Shown: positions 16,594 to 32,771 of the stretch, piece by piece
How the letters are laid out: the number at the start of each line of letters is the position of its first letter
Position numbering within the stretch: the first letter of the stretch is position 1
DNA from: Actinophytocola xanthii
Lineage (GTDB): Bacteria; Actinomycetota; Actinomycetes; Mycobacteriales; Pseudonocardiaceae
Direction of reading: 5' to 3'
Assembly (NCBI RefSeq): GCF_001921205.1
Contig: NZ_MSIE01000013.1
Coordinates: forward strand, 62,001-126,000
DNA: 64,000 nt
The notes under the pieces: model-generated
What the model saw: only the letters and a program-made list of their open reading frames with translations
Databases searched by the model: none
What the model was told of the DNA's origin: nothing
Program-made: the position numbers and the translations under genes

Positions 16594-16607
16594 TCGTGTT
16601 CGGCACC

Positions 16608-16613
16608 TATACT
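16608..16613 (+). promoter_or_regulatory. -10 box TATACT upstream of the ATPase gene
   Basis: TATACT is a near-consensus -10 element 43 bp before the chosen ATG, directly behind the fadB terminator. No clear -35 lies at the right distance. Confidence 0.5.
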
Positions 16614-16655
16614 CGGCTCGTTTCGGTGTCTTCGCCGACGAGCGGAGTGGGCGTG

Positions 16656-17909
16656 ATGTGGGCGGAGTTCGGTCTCGCCGCGAACCCCTACGCCACCGAC
16701 CCGATCCCGCCGAGCGAGGAGGGCGACCAGCTCCTGGCCGGCCGGGACGCGGAGCTCGAGGAGCTGTTGGCGCGGGTCCGCGCCGCCGGCGCGCATCCCA
16801 CCGTGGAGGGGGACGACGGCGTCGGGAAGACCAGCCTGGTCTCGGTCGTCTGCCACCGGCTGCGCAGCGAGGTCGAGCAGGGGGCGAGCTCCCCGGTGTT
16901 CCTCCCGTTGCTGGGGGAGCCGGTCCAGCCGCGGGCCGGCCACTCGGTCGACCTGTTCGTCGAGCGGGTCTACCTGCGGGTCGCGACCACGATTCTCGGC
17001 GAGCGCGAGACCCTGCGCCGCCGCGGGCTGCGGGTGCCCGACGCCGCCGAGGTCCGGGACTGGCTGCGGTCGCCGATCGTCAGGGGCTGGGGGGCGGGTG
17101 TGAACACCTCGCCGGGGGACACCGTGGCCGGGCTCCTGGGGACCGTCGACCGGTGGCTCCACGAGCTGTTCCCCGGCCCGCGGTCCGGCGGCTTCGTCTG
17201 CGTGGCCGACAACCTGGCGGCGCTGGAGACGGCGCACGGCGCGAGAACCCTGCTCGAGGCGATCGGCGGCCCCCTGCTCGACCGGTGCGGCCTGCGCTGG
17301 GTCCTCTGTGGCGCGCGGGGGGGCCTGCGCGCGTCCGCACGGCTCCCCGCCCGCCTCGGCGCACCACTGGAGCTCGGGCCGCTTGCGGACGAGGACGTCG
17401 AGGCGGCGGTCGAGCGGCGGCTGCGCCGGTACCGGACGTCCGACGACGCCACCGCACCGATCGGCCCGTCCTCGTTCCGCACGCTCTACGAGGTGCTCGG
17501 CCGCGACCTCCGCGAGGCGTTCACCTACGCCGAGGCCTTCTCGATCTGGTTGTACAGCAGGGAGAAGACGGCCGGCACGCCCGGCGAGCTCGACGCCCTG
17601 TTCGAGGCCTGGCTTGCCGGCCGGGCCGACCTGCACCGCCGGGAGACCGAGCTGGGCAACCGGGCCTGGCAGGTGTTCGACCAGCTCGCTGCCCGCCGCG
17701 GCCGGTGCTCCACGGGCGACTTCGAGGACTTCGGCTTCCACACGCGGGACGCGATGCGTACCCACCTCGCCGCGCTCGAGACGCAGAACCTCGTCACCAC
17801 CTTGGACAACCACGAGAACGACAAGCGCCGCAGGACCATCGTGCTGACCCCGCGCGGCTGGCTCGTGCGCTACGCCAGAGGCGACCACCGGCCGCCGAGA
17901 TTGGTTTAG
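16656..17909 (+). CDS. P-loop ATPase of AAA/STAND type with C-terminal winged-helix region
   Basis: A protein of about 417 residues, not assigned to a named family. It has a Walker A GDDGVGKTS at residues 52-60, a hydrophobic sensor-like strand (GLRWVLCGA) and a helical lid region. Its basic C-terminus looks like a winged helix (NDKRRRTIVLTPRGW). The opening FGLAANPYATDPIPPSEEG resembles AAA/STAND starts that bind the effector by their N-edge. ATG 16656 has GGAG eight nt upstream; the longer GTG 16596 would begin in the terminator. Its stop overlaps the DasR-like box, so it may be a signalling ATPase linked to the sugar operon, or an unrelated neighbour. Confidence 0.65.
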   Translation: MWAEFGLAANPYATDPIPPSEEGDQLLAGRDAELEELLARVRAAGAHPTVEGDDGVGKTSLVSVVCHRLRSEVEQGASSPVFLPLLGEPVQPRAGHSVDLFVERVYLRVATTILGERETLRRRGLRVPDAAEVRDWLRSPIVRGWGAGVNTSPGDTVAGLLGTVDRWLHELFPGPRSGGFVCVADNLAALETAHGARTLLEAIGGPLLDRCGLRWVLCGARGGLRASARLPARLGAPLELGPLADEDVEAAVERRLRRYRTSDDATAPIGPSSFRTLYEVLGRDLREAFTYAEAFSIWLYSREKTAGTPGELDALFEAWLAGRADLHRRETELGNRAWQVFDQLAARRGRCSTGDFEDFGFHTRDAMRTHLAALETQNLVTTLDNHENDKRRRTIVLTPRGWLVRYARGDHRPPRLV

Positions 17910-17915
17910 ACCTTG
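17900..17915 (+). promoter_or_regulatory. DasR-like operator (dre) before the sugar ABC operon
   Basis: ATTGGTTTAGACCTTG matches 11 of 16 positions of the known DasR element ACTGGTCTAGACCACT, with the central core TGGT-TAGACC intact. It overlaps the stop codon of the ATPase gene and lies 64 bp before the binding-protein start. DasR is the GlcNAc-responsive GntR regulator; its gene is not in the window. Confidence 0.55.
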
Positions 17916-17921
17916 TGCGTT

Positions 17922-17974
17922 CCCCCGTCGCACCCCTAGCATCCGAGAGGCCGGTGCGGTTCGTGCGACGGGGG
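17922..17974 (+). promoter_or_regulatory. 12-bp inverted repeat covering the binding-protein ribosome site
   Basis: CCCCCGTCGCAC (17922-17933) is the exact reverse complement of GTGCGACGGGGG (17963-17974), 29 bp apart. The right arm contains the only ribosome-binding-like G-run before ATG 17979. In RNA the hairpin would cover it; in DNA it may be an operator. Confidence 0.5.
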
Positions 17975-17978
17975 TCCG

Positions 17979-19280
17979 ATGAGGTTCAGACGTGCGGTCG
18001 CCGCGGCGGTTCTCGGCTCGCTCGCCGGCGCCGCGCTCGGTTGCGCACCACCCCAGGCGAACAGCGGCGACCAGGGACAGCGCTCCGACCAGACCACCGG
18101 CGAGCTGCGTGTCTGGCTCTTCCAGGAAGCCAGCAACGAGCCGAAGGAGGCCGTCGTCGAGGAGGCGGTGGCCGAGTTCGAGGCCGCGCACGAGGGCGTC
18201 ACGGTCAACGTCGAGTACCTGCCGGTGGACGGTCGCGCCAGCCGCTTCAACGGCGCGTTCAACGACCCCGAGAGCGCCCCGGACGTTGCCGAGTTCGGCA
18301 ACACCGACCTCGCCGGCTACACCGCCTCCAACGGGTTCGCCGACCTCACCGACGACCTCGAACGGTGGCCGGACGGCGCCGACCTGGTGCCCGAGGTGCT
18401 CGACACGGCCAGGGTGGACGGACGGACCTACGGCGTCCCCTGGTTCACCGGCACCCGCGCGCTCTACTACCGCACCGACGTGTTCACCGAGCTGGGGCTC
18501 AAGCCGCCGACCACGCTCGCCGAGCTGACCGAGACGGCGCGCGCGATCCGCGCGGCGAGATCCGACCTGTACGGCATCTCGGTCGGCGGCAAGTACCTGT
18601 TCGCGTTGCTGCCGTTCATCTGGGCCCACGGCGGCGACATCGCCGAACGGAACGGCGAGACGTGGTCGGCCACCATCGACAGCCCGGCGGCGCGCACGGG
18701 CTTCGCCCGCTACACCGAGCTGATCGCCCCGGACATCTGCCCGCCCCAGCAGTGCGCGCAGCTCACCGGCAGCCAGTCGGTGGCCGCGTTCGCCGGCGGC
18801 AAGGCGGCGATGACGATCGGCGGCGACTTCAACCGTGCGGCGGTCACCGAGGGAGCGGTCGGGGACCGCTTCGCCGTCGTGCCGCTGCCGGGCACGGCGC
18901 CGGGCGAGATCGCCCCCGCGTTCGCCGGCGGCAACCTGCTCGGGGTGTTCGCCTCCACCGACCGCCGCACGCTGGCCTGGGAGTTCGTCCGCCTGCTCGG
19001 CGGCAAGGAGTACCAGCGCGCGCTGTACGACGCGATGGGCACGATGCCCACGTTCACCGACGTCCAGGACGCGGTCGCCGGCGCCGACCCGTTCCTGCGG
19101 CCGTTCATCGAGACGGTCCAGGCCGGGACCCGGTTCGTCCCGGCCACACCGGCATGGACGAGGATCGACGCCCAGGCGGTGCTGCCGACGGCCGTGCAGC
19201 AGGTGGCCACCGGTAGCCAGGACGTCGACACCGCGACCTCGGCCGCGGCCGCCGAGATGGACGCGGCCTTCGCCGGCTAG
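17979..19280 (+). CDS. extracellular solute-binding lipoprotein, das-like amino-sugar ABC importer
   Basis: A 433-residue family-1 sugar-binding protein. The lipoprotein signal ends with a lipobox ALGC (Cys at residue 22), so it would be anchored outside the membrane. The mature part has the expected pattern (LRVWLFQEASNEPKEAVVEEAV, AGGKAAMTIGGDF). Two permease genes and a GH20 hexosaminidase follow, the order of dasABC-dasD, so chitobiose or GlcNAc oligomers are the likely ligand. Like most actinomycete importers of this class it has no ATPase gene of its own and would share MsiK encoded elsewhere. Confidence 0.87.
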   Translation: MRFRRAVAAAVLGSLAGAALGCAPPQANSGDQGQRSDQTTGELRVWLFQEASNEPKEAVVEEAVAEFEAAHEGVTVNVEYLPVDGRASRFNGAFNDPESAPDVAEFGNTDLAGYTASNGFADLTDDLERWPDGADLVPEVLDTARVDGRTYGVPWFTGTRALYYRTDVFTELGLKPPTTLAELTETARAIRAARSDLYGISVGGKYLFALLPFIWAHGGDIAERNGETWSATIDSPAARTGFARYTELIAPDICPPQQCAQLTGSQSVAAFAGGKAAMTIGGDFNRAAVTEGAVGDRFAVVPLPGTAPGEIAPAFAGGNLLGVFASTDRRTLAWEFVRLLGGKEYQRALYDAMGTMPTFTDVQDAVAGADPFLRPFIETVQAGTRFVPATPAWTRIDAQAVLPTAVQQVATGSQDVDTATSAAAAEMDAAFAG

Positions 19281-19294
19281 GGAGCCACCCCCGG

Positions 19295-20245
19295 ATGGCC
19301 CTGCCCCCAGTCACCCCTGCCGCGCCGGCCGACCGCACCCGATCGGCGCGGCAGGGGCCCCACCGGGACGACGGCCGGGCCGCGCTGCTCTACCTGGCCC
19401 CGGCCGCGGTCGTGCTGCTCGCGCTGATGGCCTACCCGATCTACCAGCTCGTGGTGATCTCGCTGCACGACTACGGGCAGGCGCAGGCCTCCGGCGCGGC
19501 ACCGCTGGTGTTCCTCGGCCTGGAGAACTACCGCACGCTGCTCGGCGACCCGCAGTTCTGGGACGTGCTGGCGGCGACGGTGGTGTTCGCCGCGGTCTGC
19601 GTGGTCGCCACGATGCTGGTCGGCACGGCGCTCGCGGTGCTGGCGAGCCGGGCCGGTCCGGTGCCCCGCACGCTGCTGTTCCTCGCCGCGCTCGGCGCCT
19701 GGGCCACCCCCACGATGGCGGGCTCCTACGTCTGGCTGTTCCTGTTCGACCAGGACTTCGGGCTGGTCAACGAGGTCCTGTCGAGCCTGGGGCTGCCGCT
19801 GTCCGGCCACTCCTGGACCTTCGAGCGGCTCTCCGCGTTCGGGCTGGTCGCGGCGGAGATCGTCTGGTGCTCGTTCCCGTTCGTCATGGTGACGGTGTAC
19901 GCGGGGATCACCGCGATCCCCCGGGAGGTGGTCGAGGCCGCGGCGCTGGACGGAGCCTCGGCCGTCCGCACCGCCACCTCGGTGGTCCTGCCGATCCTGC
20001 GGCCGCTGCTGGCCATCGCCACGATCCAGTCGATCATCTGGGACTTCAAGGTGTTCACCCAGATCTACGTGATGACCGGCGGCGGTGGCGTCGCCGGGCA
20101 GAACCTGGTGCTCAACGTCTTCGCCTACCAGAAGGCGTTCGCGGGTGAGCAGTACGGGCTCGGCGCGGCGATCGGGGTCGTGATGACCGTGCTGCTGCTC
20201 GCCGTGACCGGGTTGTACGTGCGAGCCCAGCGGTGGCGGCCGTGA
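19295..20245 (+). CDS. sugar ABC transporter permease (MalF/DasB type)
   Basis: A 316-residue inner-membrane permease with six predicted membrane spans (first LYLAPAAVVLLALMAYPIY). The EAA loop that contacts the ATPase reads EAAALDGASAVRTATSVVLP. ATG 19295 lies 14 bp behind the binding-protein gene with GGGAGCC ahead of it. The following permease overlaps its end. Confidence 0.9.
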   Translation: MALPPVTPAAPADRTRSARQGPHRDDGRAALLYLAPAAVVLLALMAYPIYQLVVISLHDYGQAQASGAAPLVFLGLENYRTLLGDPQFWDVLAATVVFAAVCVVATMLVGTALAVLASRAGPVPRTLLFLAALGAWATPTMAGSYVWLFLFDQDFGLVNEVLSSLGLPLSGHSWTFERLSAFGLVAAEIVWCSFPFVMVTVYAGITAIPREVVEAAALDGASAVRTATSVVLPILRPLLAIATIQSIIWDFKVFTQIYVMTGGGGVAGQNLVLNVFAYQKAFAGEQYGLGAAIGVVMTVLLLAVTGLYVRAQRWRP

Positions 20246-21075
20246 GGCGCCGTGCGGCCGACGTCGCCTGCCTGGCCGTCGCGCTCGTCGTCGCGTTCCC
20301 GCTCTACTGGATGGTTCTCTCGGCACTCCGGCCGGCCGGCGAGATCCAGGCCGCCGACCCGCGCCCGTGGACCCTCGCGCCCACTGTGGACAGCTTCCGC
20401 CGGGTGCTGACCGCGCAGGACTTCGGGCGCTACTTCCTCAACAGCCTCCTCGTCGCGGTCGTCGTGGTCGCCCTCTCGCTGGTGGCGTCGTTCCTCGCGG
20501 CGGTCGCGCTGACCAGGCTCCGCTTCCGCGGGCGGACCGTGCTGCTGGTGATGCTGCTGGTGGCGCAGATGGTCCCGGTCGAGGCCCTGACGATCCCGCT
20601 GTTCTTCCTGGTGCGTTTCTACGGCGACGTCGTACCCGCCGTCGGGCTCAACCAGCTCGGCTCGCTGGTGGTGGTGCACCTCGCGTTCAGCCTGCCGTTC
20701 GCGATCTGGATGCTGCGCGGGTTCACCGCCGCGGTCCCGGCGGAGCTGGAGGAGGCGGCCGCACTGGACGGCGCCTCCCGGTTCCGGTTCACCTGGCAGG
20801 TGTTGTTCCCACTGGTCGCCCCGGGCCTGGTGGCCGCGAGCGTGGTGTCGTTCGTGCACGCCTGGAACGACTTCCTGTTCGCCAAGACCTTCCTGATCTC
20901 CGGCACCGAAACCCGTACCCTTCCGCTCGGTCTGCTCGTATTCTTCAAACCGGAGGAACAGGACTGGGGGGCGATCATGGCAGGGGCGACGTTGATGACT
21001 ATTCCGGTGCTTGTCTTCTTCGTCGCGGTGCAGCGACACCTCGTCTCGGGACTGGGTGGCTCGGTGAAGGGATGA
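20233..21075 (+). CDS. sugar ABC transporter permease (MalG/DasC type)
   Basis: A permease of 277-280 residues with an EAA loop EEAAALDGASRFRFTWQVLFP and spans typical of MalG proteins. GTG 20233 gives the longest form; GTG 20242 overlaps the upstream stop as GTGA and is equally plausible. It forms the membrane channel with the preceding permease. ATG of the hexosaminidase overlaps its stop. Confidence 0.9.
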   Translation: MAAVRRRAADVACLAVALVVAFPLYWMVLSALRPAGEIQAADPRPWTLAPTVDSFRRVLTAQDFGRYFLNSLLVAVVVVALSLVASFLAAVALTRLRFRGRTVLLVMLLVAQMVPVEALTIPLFFLVRFYGDVVPAVGLNQLGSLVVVHLAFSLPFAIWMLRGFTAAVPAELEEAAALDGASRFRFTWQVLFPLVAPGLVAASVVSFVHAWNDFLFAKTFLISGTETRTLPLGLLVFFKPEEQDWGAIMAGATLMTIPVLVFFVAVQRHLVSGLGGSVKG

Positions 21076-22595
21076 CCGCGCTCGACGGTCTCCTGCCCCG
21101 TCCGGTGCGGGTCCGTCCCGCCACCGGCCACTACCGCATCGACGGCCCCGAGATCCCGGCCAGGGTCTCCACCGTCCTTCGGGTCGACCCGATCCGGGTG
21201 CCGAACCCGGAGGGGTTCCGGATCACGATCACCCCGACCGGGGTCACCACGCTGGCCGCCGACTCCGCCGGCGCCTACTACGCGGAGGCCGCGCTGCGCC
21301 AGCTGCTCGGCCCGGACGCCTTCCGCGCCGCGAACATCCACGGCGGGCCGTGGTTGCTGCCGTGCGGGCAGGTCGAGGACCACCCCAGGTTCTCCTGGCG
21401 CGGGTGCCTGCTGGACGTGGCCCGCCACTTCATGCCCAAGGCCGGGGTGTTCCGGTTCATCGACCTGATGGCCGTGCACCGGCTCAACATCCTGCACCTG
21501 CACCTCACCGACGACCAGGGCTGGCGCATCGAGGTGCCGGAGTTCCCGCGGCTCACCGAGGTCGGCTCCTGGCGGCAGGGCTCCTGGGTCGGCCGCCAGC
21601 CGGACGGCACCGCCGAGCACGACGGCCGCCCGCACGGCGGGTACTACACCACCGACGACCTGCGGGAGATCGTCGCCTACGCCCAGGACCGGCACATCAC
21701 GGTCGTGCCCGAGGTGGACGTGCCGGGCCACAGCCAGGCGGCCATCGCGTCCTATCCCGAGCTGGGCGTGACCGGCGCCGCCCTGCAGGTGCTGACCCGC
21801 TGGGGGATCAGCGACAACGTGCTCAACGTCTCCGACGAGACCATCGAGTTCTACCGGCGGGTGTTCACGCATGTGGCGGCGGTGTTCCCGGCGCCGGTGA
21901 TCTGCGTAGGCGGGGACGAGGTGCCGCTGACCCAGTGGGCGCACAGTCCGGCCGCCCGCCGGCGGATGGAGGAGCTCGGCCTGTCCAGCGCCGCGCAGCT
22001 GCCCGGCTGGTTCGTCGGCCGGATCACCGCGCACCTCGCCGCGCTGGGCCGCCGCGCCCTGGGCTGGGACGAACTGCTCGACAGCGGAGAGGTGCCGCAG
22101 GAGACCATCATCGCGAGCTGGCGCGGCGAGCAGCACGGCGTTCGTGCCGCCCTGGCCGGGCACGACGTCGTGATGTGCCCCGAGCAGGAGACCTACCTCG
22201 ACCACCGCCAGTCCGACCACACCGACGAGCCGATCCCGGTCGGCTTCCGCCGTACGCTGGCCGACGTCTACGCCTACGAGCCGATCCCGGCCGCGATGCC
22301 GGCGTCGGCCGTGCCCCGGGTGCTCGGGGCGCAGGCGCAGGTGTGGACCGAGCACCTGGACAACCCCAGGCGGGTGGACTACGCGGCGTTCCCCCGGCTC
22401 GCCGCGTTCGCCGAGGTCGTCTGGTCCGCGCCGGAGGGCCGTTCGCTCGAGGAGTTCGAACGCCGCCTCGAGCGCCACCACCTGCCGAGGCTGGACGCGC
22501 TCGGCGTGGAGTACCGCCCCCGCGGCGGTCCGCGGCCCTGGCAGACCAGGCCCGGGGTTCCCGGCCGCATCCGCGGCCTCAACGCCACGAGCTGA
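21072..22595 (+). CDS. beta-N-acetylhexosaminidase, GH20
   Basis: A 507-residue glycoside hydrolase family 20 enzyme that would release GlcNAc from chitobiose or similar sugars. The catalytic Asp-Glu pair is D282-E283 in VGGDEVPLTQW. HLHLTDDQGWRIE and VVPEVDVPGHSQA are typical GH20 barrel strands. No signal peptide is visible, so it is probably intracellular and acts on imported disaccharide. ATGA overlap with the permease ties it to the transporter operon, like dasD behind dasABC. Confidence 0.9.
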   Translation: MTALDGLLPRPVRVRPATGHYRIDGPEIPARVSTVLRVDPIRVPNPEGFRITITPTGVTTLAADSAGAYYAEAALRQLLGPDAFRAANIHGGPWLLPCGQVEDHPRFSWRGCLLDVARHFMPKAGVFRFIDLMAVHRLNILHLHLTDDQGWRIEVPEFPRLTEVGSWRQGSWVGRQPDGTAEHDGRPHGGYYTTDDLREIVAYAQDRHITVVPEVDVPGHSQAAIASYPELGVTGAALQVLTRWGISDNVLNVSDETIEFYRRVFTHVAAVFPAPVICVGGDEVPLTQWAHSPAARRRMEELGLSSAAQLPGWFVGRITAHLAALGRRALGWDELLDSGEVPQETIIASWRGEQHGVRAALAGHDVVMCPEQETYLDHRQSDHTDEPIPVGFRRTLADVYAYEPIPAAMPASAVPRVLGAQAQVWTEHLDNPRRVDYAAFPRLAAFAEVVWSAPEGRSLEEFERRLERHHLPRLDALGVEYRPRGGPRPWQTRPGVPGRIRGLNATS

Positions 22596-22630
22596 TCCCC
22601 GACCCCGGGACCGGCCCGCCGCGCGCGAGG

Positions 22631-23257
22631 TCAGCCCGCGCCGGCGACCGCCGCGACGAAGCCACGCGCACGTTCGGCGATGTCGGACAGGCGGGACTCG
22701 GCGGCCAGCGCGGGGGCGACCACGCCGCTGCCGGCGGTGACCGCGAGGGCTCCGCCGGCGAGGAAGTCGGCCGCGTTCTCCGTGGTGATCCCGCCGGTGG
22801 CCACCAGCGGCACGTCGGGGTACGGGCCGTGCAGGTCGCCGAAGTAGGCGGGGCCGAGCCGGGCGGCGGGGAACACCTTGACCGCGGTGGAGCCGAGGTC
22901 GACCGCGGCGGCCACCTCGGTGGGGGTCATCGCGCCCAGGACGAGCGGCACGTCGCGCTTGGCGGCCTCCGCGGCGACGTCCGGCCGCAGGCCGGGGGTG
23001 AGCAGGAACGAGGCGCCGGCGGCGATGGCGTCCCGCGCGTCCTGGGCCGACATCACCGTTCCCGCGCCCAGGATCAATCCGTCCACTGAGGACGCCTGTT
23101 CGATCAGGCGCGGAGCCTCCGGCGTGGTCAGCGCGAACTCGACGACGGGCAGCCCGGCCTCGACCAGCGTGCCGGCCAGCCCGACCGGGTCGGGGATGGC
23201 GGGAGCCCGGATGATGCACAGCGCACGGCGTACGGTGAGCTCGGCGAGCAGGTTCAC
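22631..23257 (-). CDS. eda: KDPG / 4-hydroxy-2-oxoglutarate aldolase
   Basis: A 208-residue class I aldolase that splits 2-keto-3-deoxy-6-phosphogluconate into pyruvate and glyceraldehyde 3-phosphate. The Schiff-base Lys lies in AVKVFPAARLGP, the catalytic Glu in VVEFALTTPEA, and LGAGTV is present. GTG 23257 has AGGAG seven nt upstream; the frame extends further but without a ribosome site. It is convergent with the hexosaminidase. A matching PfkB-type kinase lies 8.4 kb away (31704-32669), suggesting one dissected sugar-acid pathway. Confidence 0.9.
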   Translation of the reverse strand: MNLLAELTVRRALCIIRAPAIPDPVGLAGTLVEAGLPVVEFALTTPEAPRLIEQASSVDGLILGAGTVMSAQDARDAIAAGASFLLTPGLRPDVAAEAAKRDVPLVLGAMTPTEVAAAVDLGSTAVKVFPAARLGPAYFGDLHGPYPDVPLVATGGITTENAADFLAGGALAVTAGSGVVAPALAAESRLSDIAERARGFVAAVAGAG

Positions 23258-23308
23258 GGGCGGTCTCCTGGTGGCCTGGGGGGAGGGCGTTGTCACGGGG
23301 ACGGTATG

Positions 23309-23338
23309 CCACCGGGTCACGCGCCGCGCGTCGCCTCC
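23309..23338. repeat. 30-bp direct repeat, left copy (putative attachment site)
   Basis: It matches 24912-24941 at 29 of 30 positions in the same orientation, 1603 bp apart; the flanks on both sides differ. The right copy contains the last codons (EATRGA, stop) of the AAA+ gene, a common arrangement when an element integrates at the 3' end of a gene and restores it. Confidence 0.8.
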
Positions 23339-23378
23339 TCCCGGCCGAGAGCGACTGGTCAGGATGCGTACGCTCGAT

Positions 23379-23432
23379 GCGGGGGCAGCCATCTGATGGT
23401 CCGCAGGCCCAATCGACACTCGCTGCCCCCGC
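23379..23432 (-). terminator. inverted repeat behind the element regulator
   Basis: GCGGGGGCAG (23379-23388) pairs with CTGCCCCCGC (23423-23432). It lies 12 bp behind the regulator stop and could terminate its transcript. A smaller dyad CCTGAC-TCGAG-GTCAGG overlaps that stop. Confidence 0.45.
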
Positions 23433-23443
23433 CTGACTCGAGG

Positions 23444-24298
23444 TCAGGTCACGGGCTCGATCACGTCGGCAGCCCGATAGACCTCAAGCCCCTTGGACGT
23501 CCAGGGCTCCCACGGTTCGACGGCGAGACGCTCAACCCACCGCATCTGGGACGCGAAGTACTCCGTGTACGGGGTGTCCTGCCCGAAGATCAGGATCGGT
23601 CCATCTGTACCCCGCTTGCCGTGGCCGTAGAGCATCACGCGGTAGTGGTCGTCGATCTCCTCGATCGCGAACGAGCAGGGGAAGTTGTACAGCCACACCT
23701 GCAACCCGCCTCCCCGCTCGGTGAAGTCGGCTAGGCGCTCCTCGGCAGCCACCAACGGCCGAAGCACCTCCCGGAGGTAGCGATCCGGGTTCTCCATCGC
23801 TGCCTCGCCTGGCTCCAGGCGGTAGCGGTCTCGTCGTGAGTCGGTGGTCGGATCCATCATGTACATGCGGACCGGGATCGTGCGGGCTTTCGCTTCGATC
23901 ATCGGCAGCACGTGGTCTCGGGCGTAGAAGTTGCGGGTCAACCCGAACACGTTCACACGGTGTCGAGCGGATGCGATCCGGCCGAACAGGTCCCGCATGC
24001 TCTCATCGTCGGTGCGTGCGTAGATATCGGTCAGGCCGGCACGTTCCAGGTGGGTGATCTCAGGCACCGAGTGATCCTCTCCGTAGCCGAGCCGATCGGG
24101 CCTCGTCCGGTACACCCGGCACAGGTAGTCGATCCGCTCATCGTTCGGCCGGCGTTGGCCGTGTTCCCATCGCAGGATCTCAGGGTCGGTGAGGTTCGGC
24201 GGAGCTAGTCCGTCTTGCTCGTAGGCCGCATCGATCCGAGCGGACAGCTCTGACCGACTCCAACCATGCCCAACGCCAGGCGAGCAACGGATGGACAT
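23444..24298 (-). CDS. HTH regulator of the element, C-terminal main part (DUF5919-like)
   Basis: 284 residues are open in this frame. Residues 11-75 finish a helix-turn-helix domain (HGWSRSELSARIDAAYEQ ... LRWEHGQRRPNDERIDYLCRVY). The rest (RVNVFGLTRNFYARDHVLPMIEAKA) resembles the PLD-like effector part of HTH proteins from actinomycete plasmids and integrative elements. The first ten residues (MSIRCSPGVG) do not fit the family. The missing N-terminus is found in another frame just upstream, so the gene is probably frameshifted at about 24267. Base composition differs from the chromosomal genes around it. Confidence 0.6.
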   Translation of the reverse strand: MSIRCSPGVGHGWSRSELSARIDAAYEQDGLAPPNLTDPEILRWEHGQRRPNDERIDYLCRVYRTRPDRLGYGEDHSVPEITHLERAGLTDIYARTDDESMRDLFGRIASARHRVNVFGLTRNFYARDHVLPMIEAKARTIPVRMYMMDPTTDSRRDRYRLEPGEAAMENPDRYLREVLRPLVAAEERLADFTERGGGLQVWLYNFPCSFAIEEIDDHYRVMLYGHGKRGTDGPILIFGQDTPYTEYFASQMRWVERLAVEPWEPWTSKGLEVYRAADVIEPVT

Positions 24299-24422
24299 CG
24301 TCGAGACGTGCGATCCGGTCCGCGATGTCCTCTACGTGGGCACCCTCGCGAAGACCAGCCAACCTGATCTCTAGTGCTTCCCGCTGTCGGAGCTGTCTCA
24401 CAGATCGATCTACACGCGACAT
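24180..24422 (-). pseudogene. N-terminal piece of the frameshifted element regulator
   Basis: From ATG 24422 this frame reads MSRVDRSVRQLRQREALE, then DDVHPLLAWRWA, and leaves the family pattern at about 24267. The other frame (23444-24298) continues there with HGWSRSELSARI. Joined, they give the usual HTH start AWRWA-HGWSRSEL. A one-base change separates the frames. It is either true decay or an assembly error. Confidence 0.6.
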
Positions 24423-24514
24423 AACCCGCACGGTGCCGGGTTTGACGTGAGGCGTCAACTCGAGTGACGCGATAGGACGTCGAGCGCGTCAATATCTGGG
24501 ACGATGCTCGGTCC

Positions 24515-24643
24515 ATGGCTGGTCAACCGTGGTGGGTTTCGATGCTGTGGCTCGGCTCCATCGTCGTTGTCTCCGGTCTCCTGATCTTCGCAGCCGGGAG
24601 GGCCGACAAGCGGGATCGGAGCAACCAGCGGGGCAAACGATGA
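24515..24643 (+). CDS. small membrane protein of the element, 42 residues
   Basis: ATG 24515 opens a 42-residue protein with one membrane span (SMLWLGSIVVVSGLLIFAAG) and a basic tail (RADKRDRSNQRGKR). It starts the plus-strand gene chain opposite the regulator. The next ATG overlaps its stop (ATGA). Function unknown; small single-span proteins are common in such elements. Confidence 0.55.
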   Translation: MAGQPWWVSMLWLGSIVVVSGLLIFAAGRADKRDRSNQRGKR

Positions 24644-24834
24644 GCAGGTACAAACCGGACAGGGTCCGGGGAGCAACCATGCGGGCGTGGCTCAGTACGC
24701 CATGTCCCCCGGTGCCCGATCCGGTTCGAGTCCCACGTCGGTGCCGCTGCAAGTCCTGGGTGTTCGGGGTTGACGCTCGCGATGCCGATCGGCGGTTGCA
24801 GGAGCACAAAGAGAAGGAAGGGTGTTCGGGTTGA
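24640..24834 (+). CDS. small cysteine-containing protein of the element, 64 residues
   Basis: Starts at ATG 24640 inside the previous stop codon. It is a basic protein with a CRCKSW motif and charged C-terminus (DADRRLQEHKEKEGC). Unrecognised. The 4-bp overlap on its 5' side and TTGA overlap on its 3' side suggest a translationally coupled operon. Confidence 0.5.
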   Translation: MSRYKPDRVRGATMRAWLSTPCPPVPDPVRVPRRCRCKSWVFGVDARDADRRLQEHKEKEGCSG

Positions 24835-24911
24835 CTGTGCCTCGGGGGCCGCTACGCCTGCCGTGCAAGAAGTGTGAGGGCGACGGGCGCGAGCACTGCC
24901 AGGACAGTTCA
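24831..24911 (+). pseudogene. third small gene of the element, cut by the direct repeat
   Basis: TTG 24831 overlaps the previous stop (TTGA) and opens TVPRGPLRLPCKKCEGDGRE, a CxxC protein start. The frame then runs without a stop into the direct repeat and antisense to the AAA+ gene (to 25121). It therefore appears truncated by the event that joined the element end to this gene. Confidence 0.4.
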
Positions 24912-24941
24912 CCACCGGGTCACGCGCCGCGCGTTGCCTCC
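24912..24941. repeat. 30-bp direct repeat, right copy, at the 3' end of the AAA+ gene
   Basis: It differs from 23309-23338 only at 24935. On the minus strand it encodes the last residues EATRGA and the TGA of the AAA+ protein, followed by CCCGGTGG. Confidence 0.8.
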
Positions 24942-27145
24942 GTCATGCCGCGGTTGGTCCATTCGTCCGGGAGGTCCTCCGGCACGAGCAGCGTGAGGTC
25001 CTCGACCGTGGCGGTGGTCGACCGGGCGAGCCGGACGGCGTGCTCGGAGACCATGGTCTCGAACGTGCGGCGGGCGGTGCGGCCGTTGCCGAAGCTTCGT
25101 CCCCGCTCGAGGCTGTCGTAGTAGGCCAGCAGCTCGGTCCGGGTGGACTCGGCGAGGCGGTAGTCGTGCGCCGTGGCCTGCAGCTCGGTGATGCGGACGA
25201 GCTCGGAGGAGGTGTAGTCGGGGAACTCGATCGTGCGGCTGAAGCGGGACTCCAGGCCGGGGTTGGCGGCGACGAAGCGAGCCATCTCGGCGGTGTACCC
25301 CGCGACGATCACCACCACCTCGTCCCGGTGGTCCTCCATCAGCTTGACCAGCGTGTCGATCGCCTCCCGGCCGAAGTCGGCGCCCCCGTGGTCGGGTGTG
25401 AGCGCGTATGCCTCGTCGATGAACAGCACGCCGCCCCTGGCCCGGTCGAACTGCTTCTTGGTCCTGGGAGCGGTGTGGCCGACGTAGGAGCCGACCAGGT
25501 CCACCCGGGACACCTCGACCAGGTGCCCGGCCTCGAGCAGGCCGAGCGCGGCCAGGATCCGCCCGTACAGCCGCCCCACGGTGGTCTTGCCCGTCCCCGG
25601 GTTGCCGGTGAACACGAGGTGCCGGCTCAACGGCGGGGTCCGCAGCCCGGCCTCGGCCCGGCGCTGACCCACCATGATGAGATCGACCAGCGTCCGGACC
25701 TCCTCCTTGACCTCGGCGAGCCCGATCAGCGCGTCGAGCTCGCCGAGGAGCTCGGCGACCGAGGCGGGGCCGGCGGGCGCGGACGGCTCGCCCGCCCCCG
25801 CCGCGTCCCCCGTGCCCGGCGGGAGGCCGACCTGGTCGTCCTCCCCGTTGCGGTAGGAGGAGCAGGCCTGGACCGACGGGCTGCCGGCCAGCTCGAAACC
25901 GGTGTACCCGTTGTCGAACGCGCGGCACCTGGTCAGCGTCGCCCGGTCGCCGTGGATGTCGAAGCCGTGTCGGCTCGCGCCGCTGACCACACAGTCCTCG
26001 AACGTCGAGGTCGACTCGGAAAAGGCCACCACGCCGTGGTCGTCGACGTCGCTGACCCGGCAGCGGACGAACTTGGCGTCGCCGCCGTAGAGGGTGATCC
26101 CGGTGTCCGACGCCTTCTCGATCACGCAGTCCTCGGCGGCCAGCGTGGTTCCCCGGTCGGCCACGCTGAACCCGTTCCCCGACACGTCCTGGATCCGCGT
26201 GTGCGCGACCGTCGCACGGGCCCCGCTGCCCATCGACACCGCGGGGTAGCCACCGCCGCCGGTGATCTCGGTTCTGAGCAGCGACGCGGCGGAGTTCCGA
26301 CCGGTCACCTCGACCGCGCCCATGTCGATGTCGACGAAGCGGCAGTCCATGATGGACGCCGAGCCGGCGGACACAGCGCACCCGGAGCCGGAGCTCTCGG
26401 CGATCGTGCACCCGCTCAGCTCGGCGACCGCGTCCCGCCCGTCCAGCCAGACGCCGTTGCCGCCGGTGCCGCGAACGGTGGTCCCGGTCAGCACCGCCTT
26501 GGCACCGCGTTCCAGGTAGACCCCGGCGAGGTCGGTGTCCAGGATCTCGCTGTCGCGCAGGACGACGACCGCTCCCCGTCCGCGGACCTCCACCCCGTAC
26601 CCGCTCGGGCCGCTCAGCCGGCACGCGGTGAGCGTCGGCGTGGCGCCCCCGTCCACCTCGAGCGCCGCCATGCCGGCGTCGAGGACCGCGCACCGCTCGA
26701 AGGTCCCGCCCGCACCGTCGACCTTGATGCCCGCCCCGTTCTCGTTGGTGACGTGGCAGTCCCGCACCAGCGGCGTCGCGCGCTCGGCCACGCTGATCCC
26801 GCTGTCCCCGGTGCCGGTGACCGAGCAGCCATCGAGGACCGGGGTGATCCCGTCGCCGGTGATCACCACGGTGCCCGTCCAGCAGCCCTCGCCGCGCAGC
26901 TCCAGGCCGCGCACCGTCGCGGACGCGGTCAGGGTCAGGGCGGCGTGGTCGGTGTTGCCGACGAGGCACACCCCGCCCGGTCCGTTCTGGGCACGGAGCT
27001 CGATCTCCTTGTCGACCACGACCGGACCCGGGTAGGTCCCGGCCGCGACCTCCACGACATCCCCCGGTCTGGCGTCGCGCACGGCCGAGCCGATGTCCCG
27101 ATAGCCGGGCCCGAAGCCCGCGACCCGCAGCAGTCTTGCGTTCAC
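24920..27145 (-). CDS. right-handed beta-helix / AAA+ ATPase (CbxX-EccA type) fusion
   Basis: A 741-residue protein. The N half (about residues 20-420) is a run of parallel beta-helix coils, with many repeats of the kind A-x-x-x-x-G-G-x-V-x-D-C. The C half is an AAA+ module of the CbxX/CfqX (EccA) family. Its Walker A is TGNPGTGKTTVGR, Walker B GGVLFIDEAYAL, and a late motif is NGRTARRTFETMV. EccA-type modules act in type VII secretion and Rubisco activation; this fusion has no assigned role. GTG 27145 has no good ribosome site, so the mRNA may be leaderless. Its 3' end is the likely integration target of the neighbouring element. Confidence 0.82.
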   Translation of the reverse strand: MNARLLRVAGFGPGYRDIGSAVRDARPGDVVEVAAGTYPGPVVVDKEIELRAQNGPGGVCLVGNTDHAALTLTASATVRGLELRGEGCWTGTVVITGDGITPVLDGCSVTGTGDSGISVAERATPLVRDCHVTNENGAGIKVDGAGGTFERCAVLDAGMAALEVDGGATPTLTACRLSGPSGYGVEVRGRGAVVVLRDSEILDTDLAGVYLERGAKAVLTGTTVRGTGGNGVWLDGRDAVAELSGCTIAESSGSGCAVSAGSASIMDCRFVDIDMGAVEVTGRNSAASLLRTEITGGGGYPAVSMGSGARATVAHTRIQDVSGNGFSVADRGTTLAAEDCVIEKASDTGITLYGGDAKFVRCRVSDVDDHGVVAFSESTSTFEDCVVSGASRHGFDIHGDRATLTRCRAFDNGYTGFELAGSPSVQACSSYRNGEDDQVGLPPGTGDAAGAGEPSAPAGPASVAELLGELDALIGLAEVKEEVRTLVDLIMVGQRRAEAGLRTPPLSRHLVFTGNPGTGKTTVGRLYGRILAALGLLEAGHLVEVSRVDLVGSYVGHTAPRTKKQFDRARGGVLFIDEAYALTPDHGGADFGREAIDTLVKLMEDHRDEVVVIVAGYTAEMARFVAANPGLESRFSRTIEFPDYTSSELVRITELQATAHDYRLAESTRTELLAYYDSLERGRSFGNGRTARRTFETMVSEHAVRLARSTTATVEDLTLLVPEDLPDEWTNRGMTEATRGA

Positions 27146-27214
27146 CCCGCACAGGTTAGGGCTTTCCCGAGGCGCGCCGAGGGGAGTTCGACCACTTGGG
27201 CCGGATCCGAGGTG

Positions 27215-27877
27215 TCAGGCGGGGACCAGGCCGGCCTCGTAGGCGAAGATCGTGAGCTGGACCCGGTTGCTGACGTCGACCTTGGCGAACGAGCGGGTGA
27301 TGTGGGTCTTGACGGTCGCCTCGCTGAGGAACAGGGCCGCGGCGATCTCCGCGTTGGACCGTCCGCGTGCGACCTCCCGGACCACCTCGCGCTCCCGTTC
27401 GCTCAGCCCGGCGAGCCGGGTCCTCGCCCGCTCCCGCCGCGGGTCGAGCCGCCCGGCCACGAAGTGTCCGATGAGCGTTGTCGTGGTGCGCGGCGACAAC
27501 ATCATCTCGCCGCCGGCGACGACCCGGACCGCCTCGATGATCTCCCGCGGCGAGCCCTCCTTGAGCAGGAAGCCGCTGGCGCCGGCGGTGAGCGCGTCGA
27601 ACACGTACTCGTCCAGGTCGAACGTGGTGAGCACGAGGACCTTGGGCGGGCGGGGGAGCGTCATCACCGCCGCCGTCGCGGCCAGCCCGCTCATCCGCCG
27701 CATCCGGATGTCCATGATCACGACGTCCGGGGCGTGCGCGGCCACCGCCGGGAGCACCTCGTCCCCGTCGCCCGCCTCCCCGACCACCACGATGTCCTCG
27801 GCACTGCCGAGGATCATGGACAGCCCGGTGCGGACGAGCGGATCGTCGTCGACCAGCAACACCCGGACCTGGACCAC
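27215..27877 (-). CDS. NarL/LuxR-family response regulator
   Basis: A 220-residue regulator with a receiver domain (LLVDDDPLVRTGLSMIL; phospho-acceptor Asp in VVIMDIRMRRMSG; switch Lys in LLKEGSP). The C-terminal LuxR HTH reads SEREREVVREVARGRSNAEIAAALFLSEATVKTHI, with the motif split by usual spacing. It is transcribed behind its histidine kinase gene with a 97-bp gap. The target is unknown; the divergent MmpS-like gene is one candidate. Confidence 0.92.
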   Translation of the reverse strand: MVQVRVLLVDDDPLVRTGLSMILGSAEDIVVVGEAGDGDEVLPAVAAHAPDVVIMDIRMRRMSGLAATAAVMTLPRPPKVLVLTTFDLDEYVFDALTAGASGFLLKEGSPREIIEAVRVVAGGEMMLSPRTTTTLIGHFVAGRLDPRRERARTRLAGLSEREREVVREVARGRSNAEIAAALFLSEATVKTHITRSFAKVDVSNRVQLTIFAYEAGLVPA

Positions 27878-27974
27878 CGGGACATGCTAGGGCACGTCTG
27901 GTGGATCTCCGGCCGCGCGGTCCGCGCCCGGGCGGCCTGGCCGCGTTGTCGCACCAGGAGTCGATGCGGTTCCC

Positions 27975-29168
27975 TCAGGGCTCGTCCGGTGACTCCCACG
28001 GCAGCCAGGCCCGGACCACGAACGTTCCCCGGTCGGTCGGCCCCGCGCTCACGTGTCCGCCCAGGACGGCGGCCCGTTCGGTCATCCCGGCGAGCCCGGA
28101 GCGCGAGCCGGGCGATGGTTCCGCCGCGTCGGACAGCGGGTTGCTGACCTCGATCGCCACCCCGGTGCCCGGGCCGCCGCGCACGACCAGCTCGGCCGCG
28201 CTGCCCGGGGCGTGCCGCACGACGTTGGTCAGCGACTCCTGCACGATCCGGTAGACGGCGGTGCCCAGCGCCCCCGGCGCCTGCCCGGGACGGTCCACCA
28301 TGATCGTGGCGGTCACCGGCGCACCGGCCGCGCGGGTGCGTCCCACCAGGTCCGGCAGGTCGCCGAGGGTCGTGCTCGGACTCTCGGCCGCGTTGTCGTC
28401 CCGCAGCGGTATCGCGCGCCCGTCCCGCAGCATGCCGATCACCTGCCGGAGGTCCTCGAGGGACTGTTTCGCCGAGGTGCGGACGTTGCGCGCCGCCTCT
28501 CCCACCGCGGCGTCCTCGCTCACCTCGAGCGCGCCCGCCTGCAACGACAGCAGCGACAACCGGTGCCCCAGCACGTCGTGCATCTCGTGGGCGATGCGGG
28601 ACCGCTCCTCGCGCCGCGCCATCTCCTCGCGCAACACCCGTTCTCGCGCGGCCTGCCCGGCGAGCGCTTGGCGGGTGCGCCGGATGATGCCGAACACGAC
28701 GGGGATCGCGGTCAGCACGGCGGCGATCACCAGGACACCGACCACCCGCACCGCGGTGTTCTCGGCGTCGATGAGCCGGCCGGCGATCGTGATGTCCTGG
28801 TTGTACCCGGTGTCCCGCCACACCGCGAGCGCGGTCACCCCGAACACCAGCGTCGTCGCGGCCCGCACGAGGTGTCCCTGGCGGCCGGCGGCCAGCGCGG
28901 CGAGCGCGGCGAGCGCGGCGAACGAGTCCGCTCCCAGCAGCGGCGGGACGAGCGCGATGATCGTGACCAGCTCGGGTCTGCGGTGCCGCCAGCAGAGCAT
29001 GACCGCCGCGCCGAGCGCGGCGAGCAGGGCGAACCAGGCCAGCGCGCTCATCCGGGTCATCGTCTGGCCCGGTACGTAGCCCTCCGCGCCGACCGCGTAG
29101 AGGCTGCTCACCACGCTCGCCGTCACAACGCAGACGGTCGTCACGACCTCGCGCACTGCTCGCCCCAT
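27975..29168 (-). CDS. NarL-type sensor histidine kinase
   Basis: A 397-residue membrane kinase. Several N-terminal membrane segments (to about residue 165) are followed by the HisKA_3 phospho-acceptor region ERSRIAHEMHDVLGHRLS and a HATPase domain (VQESLTNVVRHAPG; GSRSGLAGMTERAAVLGG). ATG 29168 (MGRAVREVV) was chosen since the longer frame reads through the divergent promoter region. The regulator gene follows. The ligand is not evident; there is no extracytoplasmic sensor domain, so it may sense the membrane. Confidence 0.9.
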   Translation of the reverse strand: MGRAVREVVTTVCVVTASVVSSLYAVGAEGYVPGQTMTRMSALAWFALLAALGAAVMLCWRHRRPELVTIIALVPPLLGADSFAALAALAALAAGRQGHLVRAATTLVFGVTALAVWRDTGYNQDITIAGRLIDAENTAVRVVGVLVIAAVLTAIPVVFGIIRRTRQALAGQAARERVLREEMARREERSRIAHEMHDVLGHRLSLLSLQAGALEVSEDAAVGEAARNVRTSAKQSLEDLRQVIGMLRDGRAIPLRDDNAAESPSTTLGDLPDLVGRTRAAGAPVTATIMVDRPGQAPGALGTAVYRIVQESLTNVVRHAPGSAAELVVRGGPGTGVAIEVSNPLSDAAEPSPGSRSGLAGMTERAAVLGGHVSAGPTDRGTFVVRAWLPWESPDEP

Positions 29169-29332
29169 GGCCGCAGAGCGTACGGGCAGACGCCCCGACC
29201 GCGGGTCGCATCCTTTCGGCCGGGATTGACGACTTTCGGTTGACCCCAGGCGATCTGTTCGGGCGACGTGCGGAGGCGGTTGCCGTTGCTTGTATTCCGC
29301 CGCATCGACAACGACCTGAAAGGACACGTTCC

Positions 29333-29914
29333 GTGAACCAGCTCGCTCCCACCGAACAGCGCAACGGCCTCGGCACCGCCGGTTTCGTGCTCGGCCTGGT
29401 CGGCCTCCTTATCGCGTTGATCCCCCTGCTGGGGGTTCTCGCCTGGCCCCTGGTGGTGCTGGGCGTGATCTTCTCCGCTGTCGGCATCGCGCGGGTCCGC
29501 CGCGGGGCCGCGTCGAACAAGGGCCTCGCCATCGCCGGCCTGGTCGTGTCGATCGTGGGCCTCGGGGCGTGCGTGCTCTGGAGCTTCGTGATCAACACGG
29601 CCGACAACACCCTCGAGGAGGAGGCCGCCCGGGAGGTCGAGATCACCTACGAGGTCACCGGCGACACCGCCACCGCCGACATCGAGTACAGCACCTACAG
29701 CGACGACGGCGTCGAGAGCCACGCGGAGAACGGCGCCAAGGTCCCCTGGACCAAGAAGGTCACCGCGAAGGGCCTGCTCAAGGGCGGCTCCCTGCTGGCA
29801 ACGACCGGCGAGTCCGGCGGCAAGATCACCTGCCGCGTCCTGGTGGACGGCAAGGAGACCGAGACCGGCACCGCGTCCGGCCCCTTCGCCATGGCCACCT
29901 GCACCGGCTTCTGA
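29333..29914 (+). CDS. DUF4190 membrane protein with MmpS-like C-terminal domain
   Basis: A 193-residue protein. Two membrane spans of DUF4190 type (GTAGFVLGLVGLLIALIPL; KGLAIAGLVVSIVGLGAC) precede an external domain that reads like MmpS (EITYEVTGDTATADIEYSTYS ... CRVLVDGKE). GTG 29333 has GAAAGGAC eight nt upstream. It is divergent from the histidine kinase, 164 bp apart. MmpS proteins assist MmpL export, but no MmpL gene is here, so the role is open. Confidence 0.75.
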   Translation: MNQLAPTEQRNGLGTAGFVLGLVGLLIALIPLLGVLAWPLVVLGVIFSAVGIARVRRGAASNKGLAIAGLVVSIVGLGACVLWSFVINTADNTLEEEAAREVEITYEVTGDTATADIEYSTYSDDGVESHAENGAKVPWTKKVTAKGLLKGGSLLATTGESGGKITCRVLVDGKETETGTASGPFAMATCTGF

Positions 29915-29930
29915 CCGCCGACCGGACCCG

Positions 29931-30191
29931 TCACCTCGGTGGCCGGTGCTGTCCGGGCGCGTCCGTGAGCCCCGGCAGCTCGGTCTCGGGGTTGTCGGGC
30001 ACGGGCACCGCCAGCAACTCGATGGCGATCTCCACCAGCCGCGCCAGAGCGGGACGGGCGATGAGGATGTTCAGCTCGTCGGTCGGCTGTCCGATCATCA
30101 CATGGACGTCCATGTCGCCGGTGAACGTGGCCCGCAGCTGGCAGCTGCCGGGGATGTCGAGCCAGACCGCCGCATGCGGCTCACCGGCCAT
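29931..30191 (-). CDS. hypothetical protein, 86 residues
   Basis: A short acidic protein (MAGEPHAAVWLDIPGSCQLRATF ...) without a recognised domain; the two halves look like beta strands then a helix (RLVEIAIELLAV). It is divergent from the XRE-type regulator gene at 30352, 160 bp apart, a common arrangement of a regulator and a small partner in actinomycetes. No function is proposed. Confidence 0.5.
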   Translation of the reverse strand: MAGEPHAAVWLDIPGSCQLRATFTGDMDVHVMIGQPTDELNILIARPALARLVEIAIELLAVPVPDNPETELPGLTDAPGQHRPPR

Positions 30192-30351
30192 CTCGTGTCA
30201 GTCCTTCGTTCTGCATGGTTGGTCTCCCGCTGTGTCTGGGGTGTGGCGGGACCAGGAGACCTCGGCACCGCCAGGGTGCGAAACCGGGTGGGTGCGCTTC
30301 CCACATCGGTTGTCACCTGGCGCCCTGTGCGGAAACGGCGACAATGGGAGT

Positions 30352-31759
30352 GTGCGGCAGACGGCCGGGGAACCCCCGGAGATCCTCGAGTTCCAGCGGG
30401 TACTGGGGGAACGGCTGGCGACGTTCCGCAAGGCGGCCGAGGTCACACAAGCACGGCTCGCCTCGAGCGCCTATCTCGACCGCACTACCGTTTCCCACAT
30501 CGAGCGAGGCCGGGCGCGGGGCGGTGAGGCGTTCTGGCGGACGGCGGACGATCTCGCCGGCGCCGGGGGCCAACTCCTCGACGCGTTCCACCGGCTCGAG
30601 GCCGCCAGGCGCGAGTACGAGGCGGATGTCCGCTCGCACGAGCTCGCCGCGGCGCGAGCCGAGGTGGACGGTCTGCGCGGTGCGCCGCTGACCGGTCGGG
30701 GCACCCGCGCACAGGGGCAGGACGACGAGCTGGCGGCCGTCGAACTGGCCCGCCGGGTTGCCGCTAGGGAGCGTCCTCAAAGCCAGAGGGTGAGGGTGGC
30801 TAGCGACGTCGGTGACGAGACGCTGACCCGGCTGGAGCTGGCCTTCGACGAGCTGGCGATGGCCTACCCGGTGACGCCGCCGGCGGAGTTGCTGGAGCGG
30901 TTGCGGACCCACCTGTCCTACGTCGAGGCGCTGGTCGACTCGCGGATGACGCTGGGGGAGCGGAGGCGGTTGATCGTGGTGGGTGCGTGGCTGTCGCTGC
31001 TCGCGGCGACGGTGCACGTCGATCTCAAGCAAACGGCGGCCGCCACCGCGCGGCTGCGGACGGCAGCAGGGCTCGCGCGGCAGGCCGGGCACGACGAGAT
31101 CCGCGCCTGGTGCTTCGAAGACCGAGGCCTGGCGGGTGCTGACCGACGGCGACTACCGGCGCGCCGTCGAGCTGGCCCGTGCCGCGCAGGAGCTCGCGCC
31201 GGCAGGCAGCTCGGTCGCGGTCCAGGCCACCGCGCAGGAGGGGCGTGGCTGGGCGCGGCTTCGCGAAACCCGGGAGACCTACCGGGTGCTCGGCCAGGTC
31301 GAGCGCCTCGTCTCGCCCCTGGCACGGCCGGAACGACCCGAGCACCACTACCGCTACGACCCCGACAAGTCCCTCGCCTACCTCGCCACGACGTTGGCGT
31401 GGGTGGGCGATCCGGCGGCGGAGGGCTGCGCGCGGGAGGTCATCGCCCGGCTCGCCCCGGCCGAGCGCGGCGACGGCTGGACGCGTCGGGTTGCCGTGGC
31501 AAACCTCGACCTCGCGTTGGCGCTGCTGGTGACCGGACGGCTGGACGAGGCGTGTGCGGCGGCGTACCGCGCCATCGGGTCCGGTCGCGTGGTGCCGTCC
31601 AACCACTGGCGGGCCGCCGAGGTGGTCGAGGCCGTGGCGGCACGCGGGTTGCCCGAGGGGAGGGACCTCCGTGAGGCCTACGAGCGGCTCAGGGGCGGCG
31701 CGTTCAGCGGAGGTGCGCCGCCGCCCACTCGTCGTCGTCGGCCTCGGTCAGGCGGGTGA
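30352..31759 (+). pseudogene. XRE-family regulator with TPR-like domain, single frameshift
   Basis: GTG 30352 opens an HTH domain (GERLATFRKAAEVTQARLAS ... DRTTVSHIERGRARGG) and a helical repeat region up to GHDEIRAWCFE. At about 31117-31121 the family sequence moves to the next frame (TEAWRVLTDGDYRRAVELARAAQ). It continues there to VVPSNHWRAAEVVEAV and LREAYERLR, ending at 31759. One extra G in CGAAGACC would explain it. As written the first frame gives a scrambled tail to 31674. Its 3' end overlaps the convergent kinase gene by 56 bp. A sequencing error is as likely as decay. Confidence 0.7.
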
Positions 31760-32669: not shown

Positions 32670-32707
32670 CGGCACCTCCACGCGAGGAGTCCTATCCGGA
32701 CTCACGT

Positions 32708-32736
32708 TTGACTGGTCGGGCAGCGGGATGCTACAC
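32708..32736 (+). promoter_or_regulatory. candidate promoter of the D-amino-acid enzyme gene
   Basis: TTGACT (32708-32713), 17 bp, CTACAC (32731-32736). The spacer begins with GGTC; together ACTGGTC (32711-32717) is a perfect half of the DasR element, but the other half is absent. Confidence 0.4.
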
Positions 32737-32771
32737 ACCGGTGCGTTGCCCACAGCGCGGTAGGAGGGCCA

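Follow-up and report, generated by a model that had tools for sequence, protein, structure and literature searches.

The last 30 bp of a protein-coding gene of Actinophytocola xanthii have probably served as the insertion site of an integrative element that has since decayed, and this element most likely belonged to the AICE type. In the window, i.e., the whole stretch of 64,000 nucleotides submitted to the analysis, the putative remnant consists of a body of low G+C content with an apparently broken regulator and a few small genes, bounded by two direct repeats, one of which coincides with the end of a gene coding for a beta-helix/AAA+ protein (Table 1). The AICEs of the pSAM2/SLP1 type similarly possess direct-repeat attachment sites, one copy of which forms the 3' end of a gene, and a regulator divergent from small ORFs. 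The remnant differs from them by the lack of the int, xis, rep and tra genes and by its target, a protein gene where these elements use a tRNA gene. Since neither an integrase nor an empty site nor an intact relative is available, we infer the AICE membership rather than show it.

Table 1. Features of the putative remnant, its target gene and the loci discussed in the text (window coordinates unless a locus is named).
Feature	Position	Strand	Remarks
eda, KDPG/KHG aldolase	22631-23257	-	conserved neighbour, left flank
Left 30-bp direct repeat, putative attL	23309-23338		upstream of eda; AAA+ frame gives EATRGA*
Body of the putative element remnant	23339-24911		1573 bp, 64.3% G+C
Regulator, C-terminal part	23444-24298	-	rest of HTH_31-like domain and domain with PLD-like predicted fold
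Regulator, N-terminal part	24180-24422	-	ATG at 24422; other frame than C-terminal part
Putative operator palindrome	24442-24458		perfect, 17 bp, 6-bp arms and 5-bp spacer; divergent intergenic region
Small gene 1	24515-24643	+	42 aa; a single apparent transmembrane segment (by eye)
Small gene 2	24640-24834	+	64 aa; ATGA overlap with gene 1
Small gene 3	24822-24911	+	CxxCxGxG motif; frame continues into right repeat
Right 30-bp direct repeat, putative attR	24912-24941		last codons and stop of AAA+ gene
Target gene, right-handed beta-helix and CbbX/SpoVK-like AAA+ protein	24920-27145	-	741 aa
TIR and PLD-like domain fusion (G610)	L228:8020-9150	-	as in defence effectors

The two repeats were found as described in the initial annotation, with a spacing of 1603 and a single mismatch in 30 positions, and the translation bears out that the right copy corresponds to the end of the AAA+ gene, stop codon included. 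Read in the AAA+ frame, both copies give the same residues and the same stop, so that the mismatch is silent and the protein end remains the same whichever copy occurs at the end of the gene. According to a simple base-composition model, 3.5e-5 such repeat pairs are expected by chance per 64 kb, and, among the matches listed, the other exact repeats of at least 20 bp in the window are short-period tandem arrays. Such short arrays start at positions 769 (15-bp period), 16521 (13-bp period) and 36794 (15-bp period). The repeat was also searched, with up to three mismatches, in two overlapping sets, one of 60 genomes and one of 390 genomes of the family, and a single genome responded in each set, exclusively with the two copies of the window. 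As expected for attachment sites of the attL/attR type, the 30-bp repeat is thus peculiar to one locus of the genome, and one of its copies makes up the end of a gene. No intact element carrying the 30-bp attachment sequence occurs among the other 59 or the other 389 genomes of these overlapping sets. Relatives harbouring both copies without any insertion history, which would have spoken against an inserted element, were not encountered either, since no other searched genome carries the repeat. An exact 17-bp core of the repeat occurs in 15 viral contigs, which were taken as chance matches because only 18-21 of the 30 positions agree with the 30-mer. A transposon origin was discarded for lack of terminal inverted repeats at the ends of the insert (by eye), and a target duplication of 30 bp would be a long one.

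The composition of the body departs from that of its surroundings, as the initial annotation had claimed. Its G+C content amounts to 64.3%, vs 72.7% for the window, and none of 1249 windows of the same size (step 50) is lower, the minimum of the 1186 non-overlapping ones being 68.0%. In the same way, GC3 values of 80%, 74% and 69% for the HTH regulator, small gene 1 and small gene 2, respectively, contrast with those of the AAA+ gene (95%) and eda (94%). Among the ORFs located between the repeats, no match was found to an integrase of the tyrosine or serine type, to a replication initiator (RepSA or other), or to a TraB translocase of the FtsK/SpoIIIE type. What is left corresponds to the organization of a decayed AICE, namely some cargo between two direct repeats with the core genes lost. 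A scan for promoters and terminators detected nothing. A possible tRNA relic in small gene 2, pointed to by a B-box-like string at 24723-24739, was rejected, as neither ARAGORN, run on the window, nor cmscan detected a tRNA; the counts for the B-box-like pattern (1 match vs 0.63 expected, and 85 matches in the genome vs 47 for the backward control) carry little information because the pattern was derived from the site itself.

In the assembled sequence, the HTH regulator indeed appears broken, its N- and C-terminal parts occurring in different frames. The frame is lost near 24260-24290, beyond which the N-terminal ORF continues out of frame, and what remains of the HTH_31-like domain in the fragment 23444-24298 scores below the Pfam cut-off. 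Intact relatives exist, with 330 aa and 60% identity over the matched part in G080 (L033/L166), and 318 aa and 58% identity in G633 (L227). Matches to the regulator occur in 16 of 299 relatives (E<=1e-3), 7 of them strong including the own genome, and in 33 of 394 genomes of the class, with 3 strong ones again including the own genome. A three-sequence profile at E<=1e-25 retrieved 3 of 387 genomes of the order, i.e., the own genome, G080 and G115, the latter by its N-terminus only. The regulator is therefore patchily distributed in all three genome sets and is not a core gene, so that the outcome that would have contradicted an inserted element, enclosed genes conserved as ordinary core genes, was looked for and not seen. 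At another locus, the relative from G041 (L167) adjoins a gene of the inositol monophosphatase family. Repeated blocks of 25-39 bp, with a spacing of about 2.3-2.4 kb, are found on both sides of the regulator in G633 (L227:8000-11300) and apparently represent duplicated genes.

The small genes are transcribed divergently from the regulator. The initial annotation mentioned very small genes overlapping in a chain, which holds for genes 1 and 2 with their ATGA overlap, while the third ORF reads through the right repeat and is thus probably truncated there. None of the small ORFs matches a family of Pfam or NCBIfam, neither small gene 1 nor small gene 2 has a match in plasmids, and small gene 2 has none in phages. 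The best other match of small gene 2, in G023 (E 5e-7), adjoins an apparent XRE-type regulator (by eye), at a place devoid of any recognisable AICE. The palindrome occupying the divergent intergenic region is probably an autoregulatory operator, judging from its recurrence upstream of related genes. Allowing for one mismatch, the generalised pattern of this TTGNCG-N5-CGNCAA palindrome has 3 matches in the window vs 2.2 expected, of which only that at 24442-24458 is exact. Upstream of the G633 gene, the pattern occurs three times, twice exactly, and the whole L227 locus contains 5 matches vs 0.65 expected, a number reached in none of 200 shuffles. Upstream of the G080 gene (L166), it occurs once with one mismatch, a site that is weak when taken alone because the locus contains, at up to two mismatches, fewer matches (7) than expected (9.9). 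The pattern accordingly precedes all three HTH_31-type genes compared, those of the window, G633 and G080.

With respect to a relationship with AICEs, G007 possesses a protein whose C-terminal domain shares 57% identity with the corresponding domain of the window regulator. This relative is enclosed in an element delimited by a 52-bp repeat of tRNA-Met, the copies of which lie 15.7 kb apart, with an integrase, an HTH_17 (excisionase-like) protein, RepSA and FtsK/SpoIIIE all over the Pfam cut-offs. A close copy of the G007 relative in G052 adjoins rep and tra genes, so that 2 of the 8 loci examined associate regulator relatives with AICE genes. The queries for AICE integrase, rep and tra gave no match at the six other loci (G041, G193, G178, G080, G633 and G610; 10-19 kb each, some ending at contig ends), which include both full-length relatives, G080 and G633. 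Several AICE-like elements, with genes resembling RepSA and tra, occur in the genome itself, such as L224 (G000:C139), L222 (C119) and L219 (C125), and a further element of the genome, L220, shows an exact 43-bp repeat of tRNA-Pro with copies 11 kb apart. In L224, RepSA and an integrase score over the cut-offs and an FtsK-type protein below (20.7 vs 24 bits). A DUF5919 regulator stands at its head and is transcribed away from small ORFs, tra-like genes, RepSA, a short ORF resembling xis (by eye) and the integrase. No attachment site of L224 was found, and its 18 kb contain no tRNA. BLASTP did not connect the window regulator with this DUF5919 regulator, and hhalign related them distantly (probability 97.5%, E 5.4e-12). 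No paper dealing with DUF5919 was found in the literature searched. The remnant shows the same polarity, with the regulator on one side and the small genes directed toward the attachment site, at which xis and int would be expected. The layout of a regulator divergent from small ORFs is present, and the two of eight relatives accompanied by AICE genes, together with one distant DUF5919 relative, may relate the regulator to a class found in AICEs.

As for the target, the AAA+ gene has no close orthologue within the genomes searched. The best 80 loci of a scan of genome contigs reach 36-45% identity, and the best of the matches in 100 relatives, leaving aside the own protein, is found in G032 with 44% over residues 169-728. 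Within the same genome, a paralogue (G000:C57:113834-116782) combines in one open frame a beta-helix part and two AAA+ matches. Of the five congeners, four contain partial matches of 44-61% to the AAA+ protein and G005 none, and neither the insert nor the AAA+ gene was found at the locus in any of them, so that no single-copy empty site is available among these species. The aldolase gene eda is kept in all five with 78-86% identity, as is the gene pair at 31704-34061. The proposal that AAA+ loci elsewhere might bear a longer, integrase-bearing insertion found no support, as one AICE integrase query gave no match at the AAA+ loci analysed, with flanks of up to 10 kb for the 80 loci above and of only 1.5 kb for L003-L031, for which the negative result is therefore weak. 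The integrative nature assigned to the segment in the initial annotation is thus favoured by the gene-end repeat with its silent mismatch, the foreign composition, the divergent layout and the patchy regulator, but lacks the counterpart of an integrase-bearing AAA+ locus. The region 16596-34061 of the window is also rearranged. The 31704-34061 pair is inverted relative to eda when compared with all five congeners, transporter and hexosaminidase genes are inverted relative to eda when compared with the four congeners whose contigs reach them, and about 8.4 kb from eda to 31704, comprising the insert, the AAA+ gene, a response regulator, a kinase and others, were not found at the locus in the congeners.

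The sequence of events that would best account for these features starts with the integration of a circular element at the final 30 bp of the AAA+ gene by a site-specific recombinase, since lost. With the 30-bp copy brought by the element itself, the end of the gene would have been rebuilt and the protein left unchanged, and the original copy would have been pushed to the far side, near eda. In the resident element, the regulator may have bound the palindrome and repressed the divergent promoter, a repression that would have silenced the small genes together with downstream genes for transfer, replication and recombination. All that lay from small gene 3 up to the right attachment site might then have been lost by an internal deletion which, with the frameshift of the regulator, would have turned the element into an immobile scar. 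Directly observed are the repeats with their silent mismatch, the composition, the split regulator, the palindrome, the lack of an integrase and that of the insert in the congeners; we infer the recombinase, the order of decay and the function of the operator, as well as the AICE identity.

Other origins of the segment were considered. A complete non-autonomous mini-element, composed of the regulator and the small genes and mobilised in trans through an integrase encoded by another element, resident or visiting, would fit the neat bounding of the unit by both repeats and the occurrence in the whole genome of 14 PF00589 matches, 12 of them over the cut-off and all 14 on other contigs. That genes remaining between direct repeats may be mobilised at a later time has been suggested (PMC9513070). 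Nevertheless, small gene 3 entering the repeat and the frameshifted regulator are signs of decay, and the genome offers neither a second copy of the unit nor a third copy of the repeat that would mark the helper, so that such a mini-element seems unlikely. Tyrosine-integrase phages also use the 3' ends of genes, and a repressor with a divergent promoter has a phage-like appearance, which would agree with the relic of a prophage or phage satellite instead of a conjugative element. However, the regulator finds no match in 50,697 phage records, the sole pattern match in IMG/VR contigs is not a relative, and two relatives of its C-terminal domain sit with AICE genes, all of which makes a phage origin quite doubtful.

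The absence of a recombinase and the rearranged surroundings compared with the congeners would also suit an event of illegitimate recombination or repair in which, without any recombinase, 30 bp from the end of the gene were copied. Its beginning within the coding end, its stop codon and its purely silent difference nevertheless make the copy typical of site-specific integration, and illegitimate recombination or repair is considered improbable. Finally, an ordinary host regulator with small genes flanked by chance repeats might be advocated from the two full-length relatives, which are not visibly located in mobile elements, but the chance expectation for the repeats given above, the foreign composition and the absence from the locus of the congeners render this reading highly improbable.

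A decayed element of the AICE type inserted at the end of a protein gene, which is the reading we favour, would not be without precedent, and the idea that such a target represents a less usual integration site was overstated. In one Streptomyces population, the sites of integrative conjugative elements comprise 36 tRNA genes, 14 protein-coding genes and 1 intergenic site (PMC9513070). According to another work (PMC3218068), tRNA 3' ends are the target for the vast majority of AICEs with a tyrosine integrase, except for the pSLS sub-family, and a group of AICEs with a serine recombinase is located in protein-encoding genes. The pSLS sub-family thus illustrates a non-tRNA target for tyrosine-recombinase AICEs, but the window holds a remnant without integrase. 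A close parallel is offered by a glycosyltransferase gene with decayed AICE copies whose cargo is left between direct repeats (PMC9513070), and these copies share with the remnant the protein-coding target and the loss of the core genes. They differ in that truncated integrases and the empty or intact sites of sister strains reveal their history, neither of which occurs here. Published examples thus exist both of insertion sites in protein genes and of decayed AICEs flanked by direct repeats, and the present locus adds one more likely insertion site of this kind and one more decayed element to the described class. Such scars are recognisable from sequence alone by gene-end repeats with silent differences.

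The C-terminal domain of the regulator deserves separate consideration. In the window protein, as in those of G007, G080, G633 and G193, it scores below every Pfam cut-off. The AlphaFold model of the window fragment, built with nine sequences, has a mean pLDDT of 70 and a pTM of 0.72, and Foldseek against the PDB gave TrmBL2 and TrmB as best matches, with PLD-fold proteins among the best, at TM-scores of 0.30-0.36, normalised by query length, and identities of 10-12%; a sequence search of solved structures returned chance-level matches only. From this predicted fold, the domain may be a PLD-fold ligand sensor. The HKD motif of the enzymes of the PLD superfamily reads HxKxxxxD. This catalytic motif is not present in the domain, where an invariant H226 occurs in YGHG[KR]RGT, R replaces the lysine in L166 and the place of the D is taken by another residue. 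In TrmB-type regulators, the PLD-like fold has a sensor role. The window regulator resembles them by an HTH followed by a PLD-like domain and by its best Foldseek matches, but differs by an HTH_31-type DNA-binding domain, the low identity and TM-scores, and a model of moderate quality. It is a rather unlikely proposal that the regulator would act as a TrmB-like sensor-repressor whose PLD-fold domain would also be the sensing half of a TIR (CAP12-type) effector in G610; if true, derepression of the element and the defence effector would respond to one common small-molecule signal. Of greater use as a lead is the unnamed domain common to the regulator family and the TIR effector. In G610, the same domain is found downstream of a CAP12/Pycsar TIR domain (PF10137, E 1.3e-21; PADLOC TIR effector 9.4e-32).
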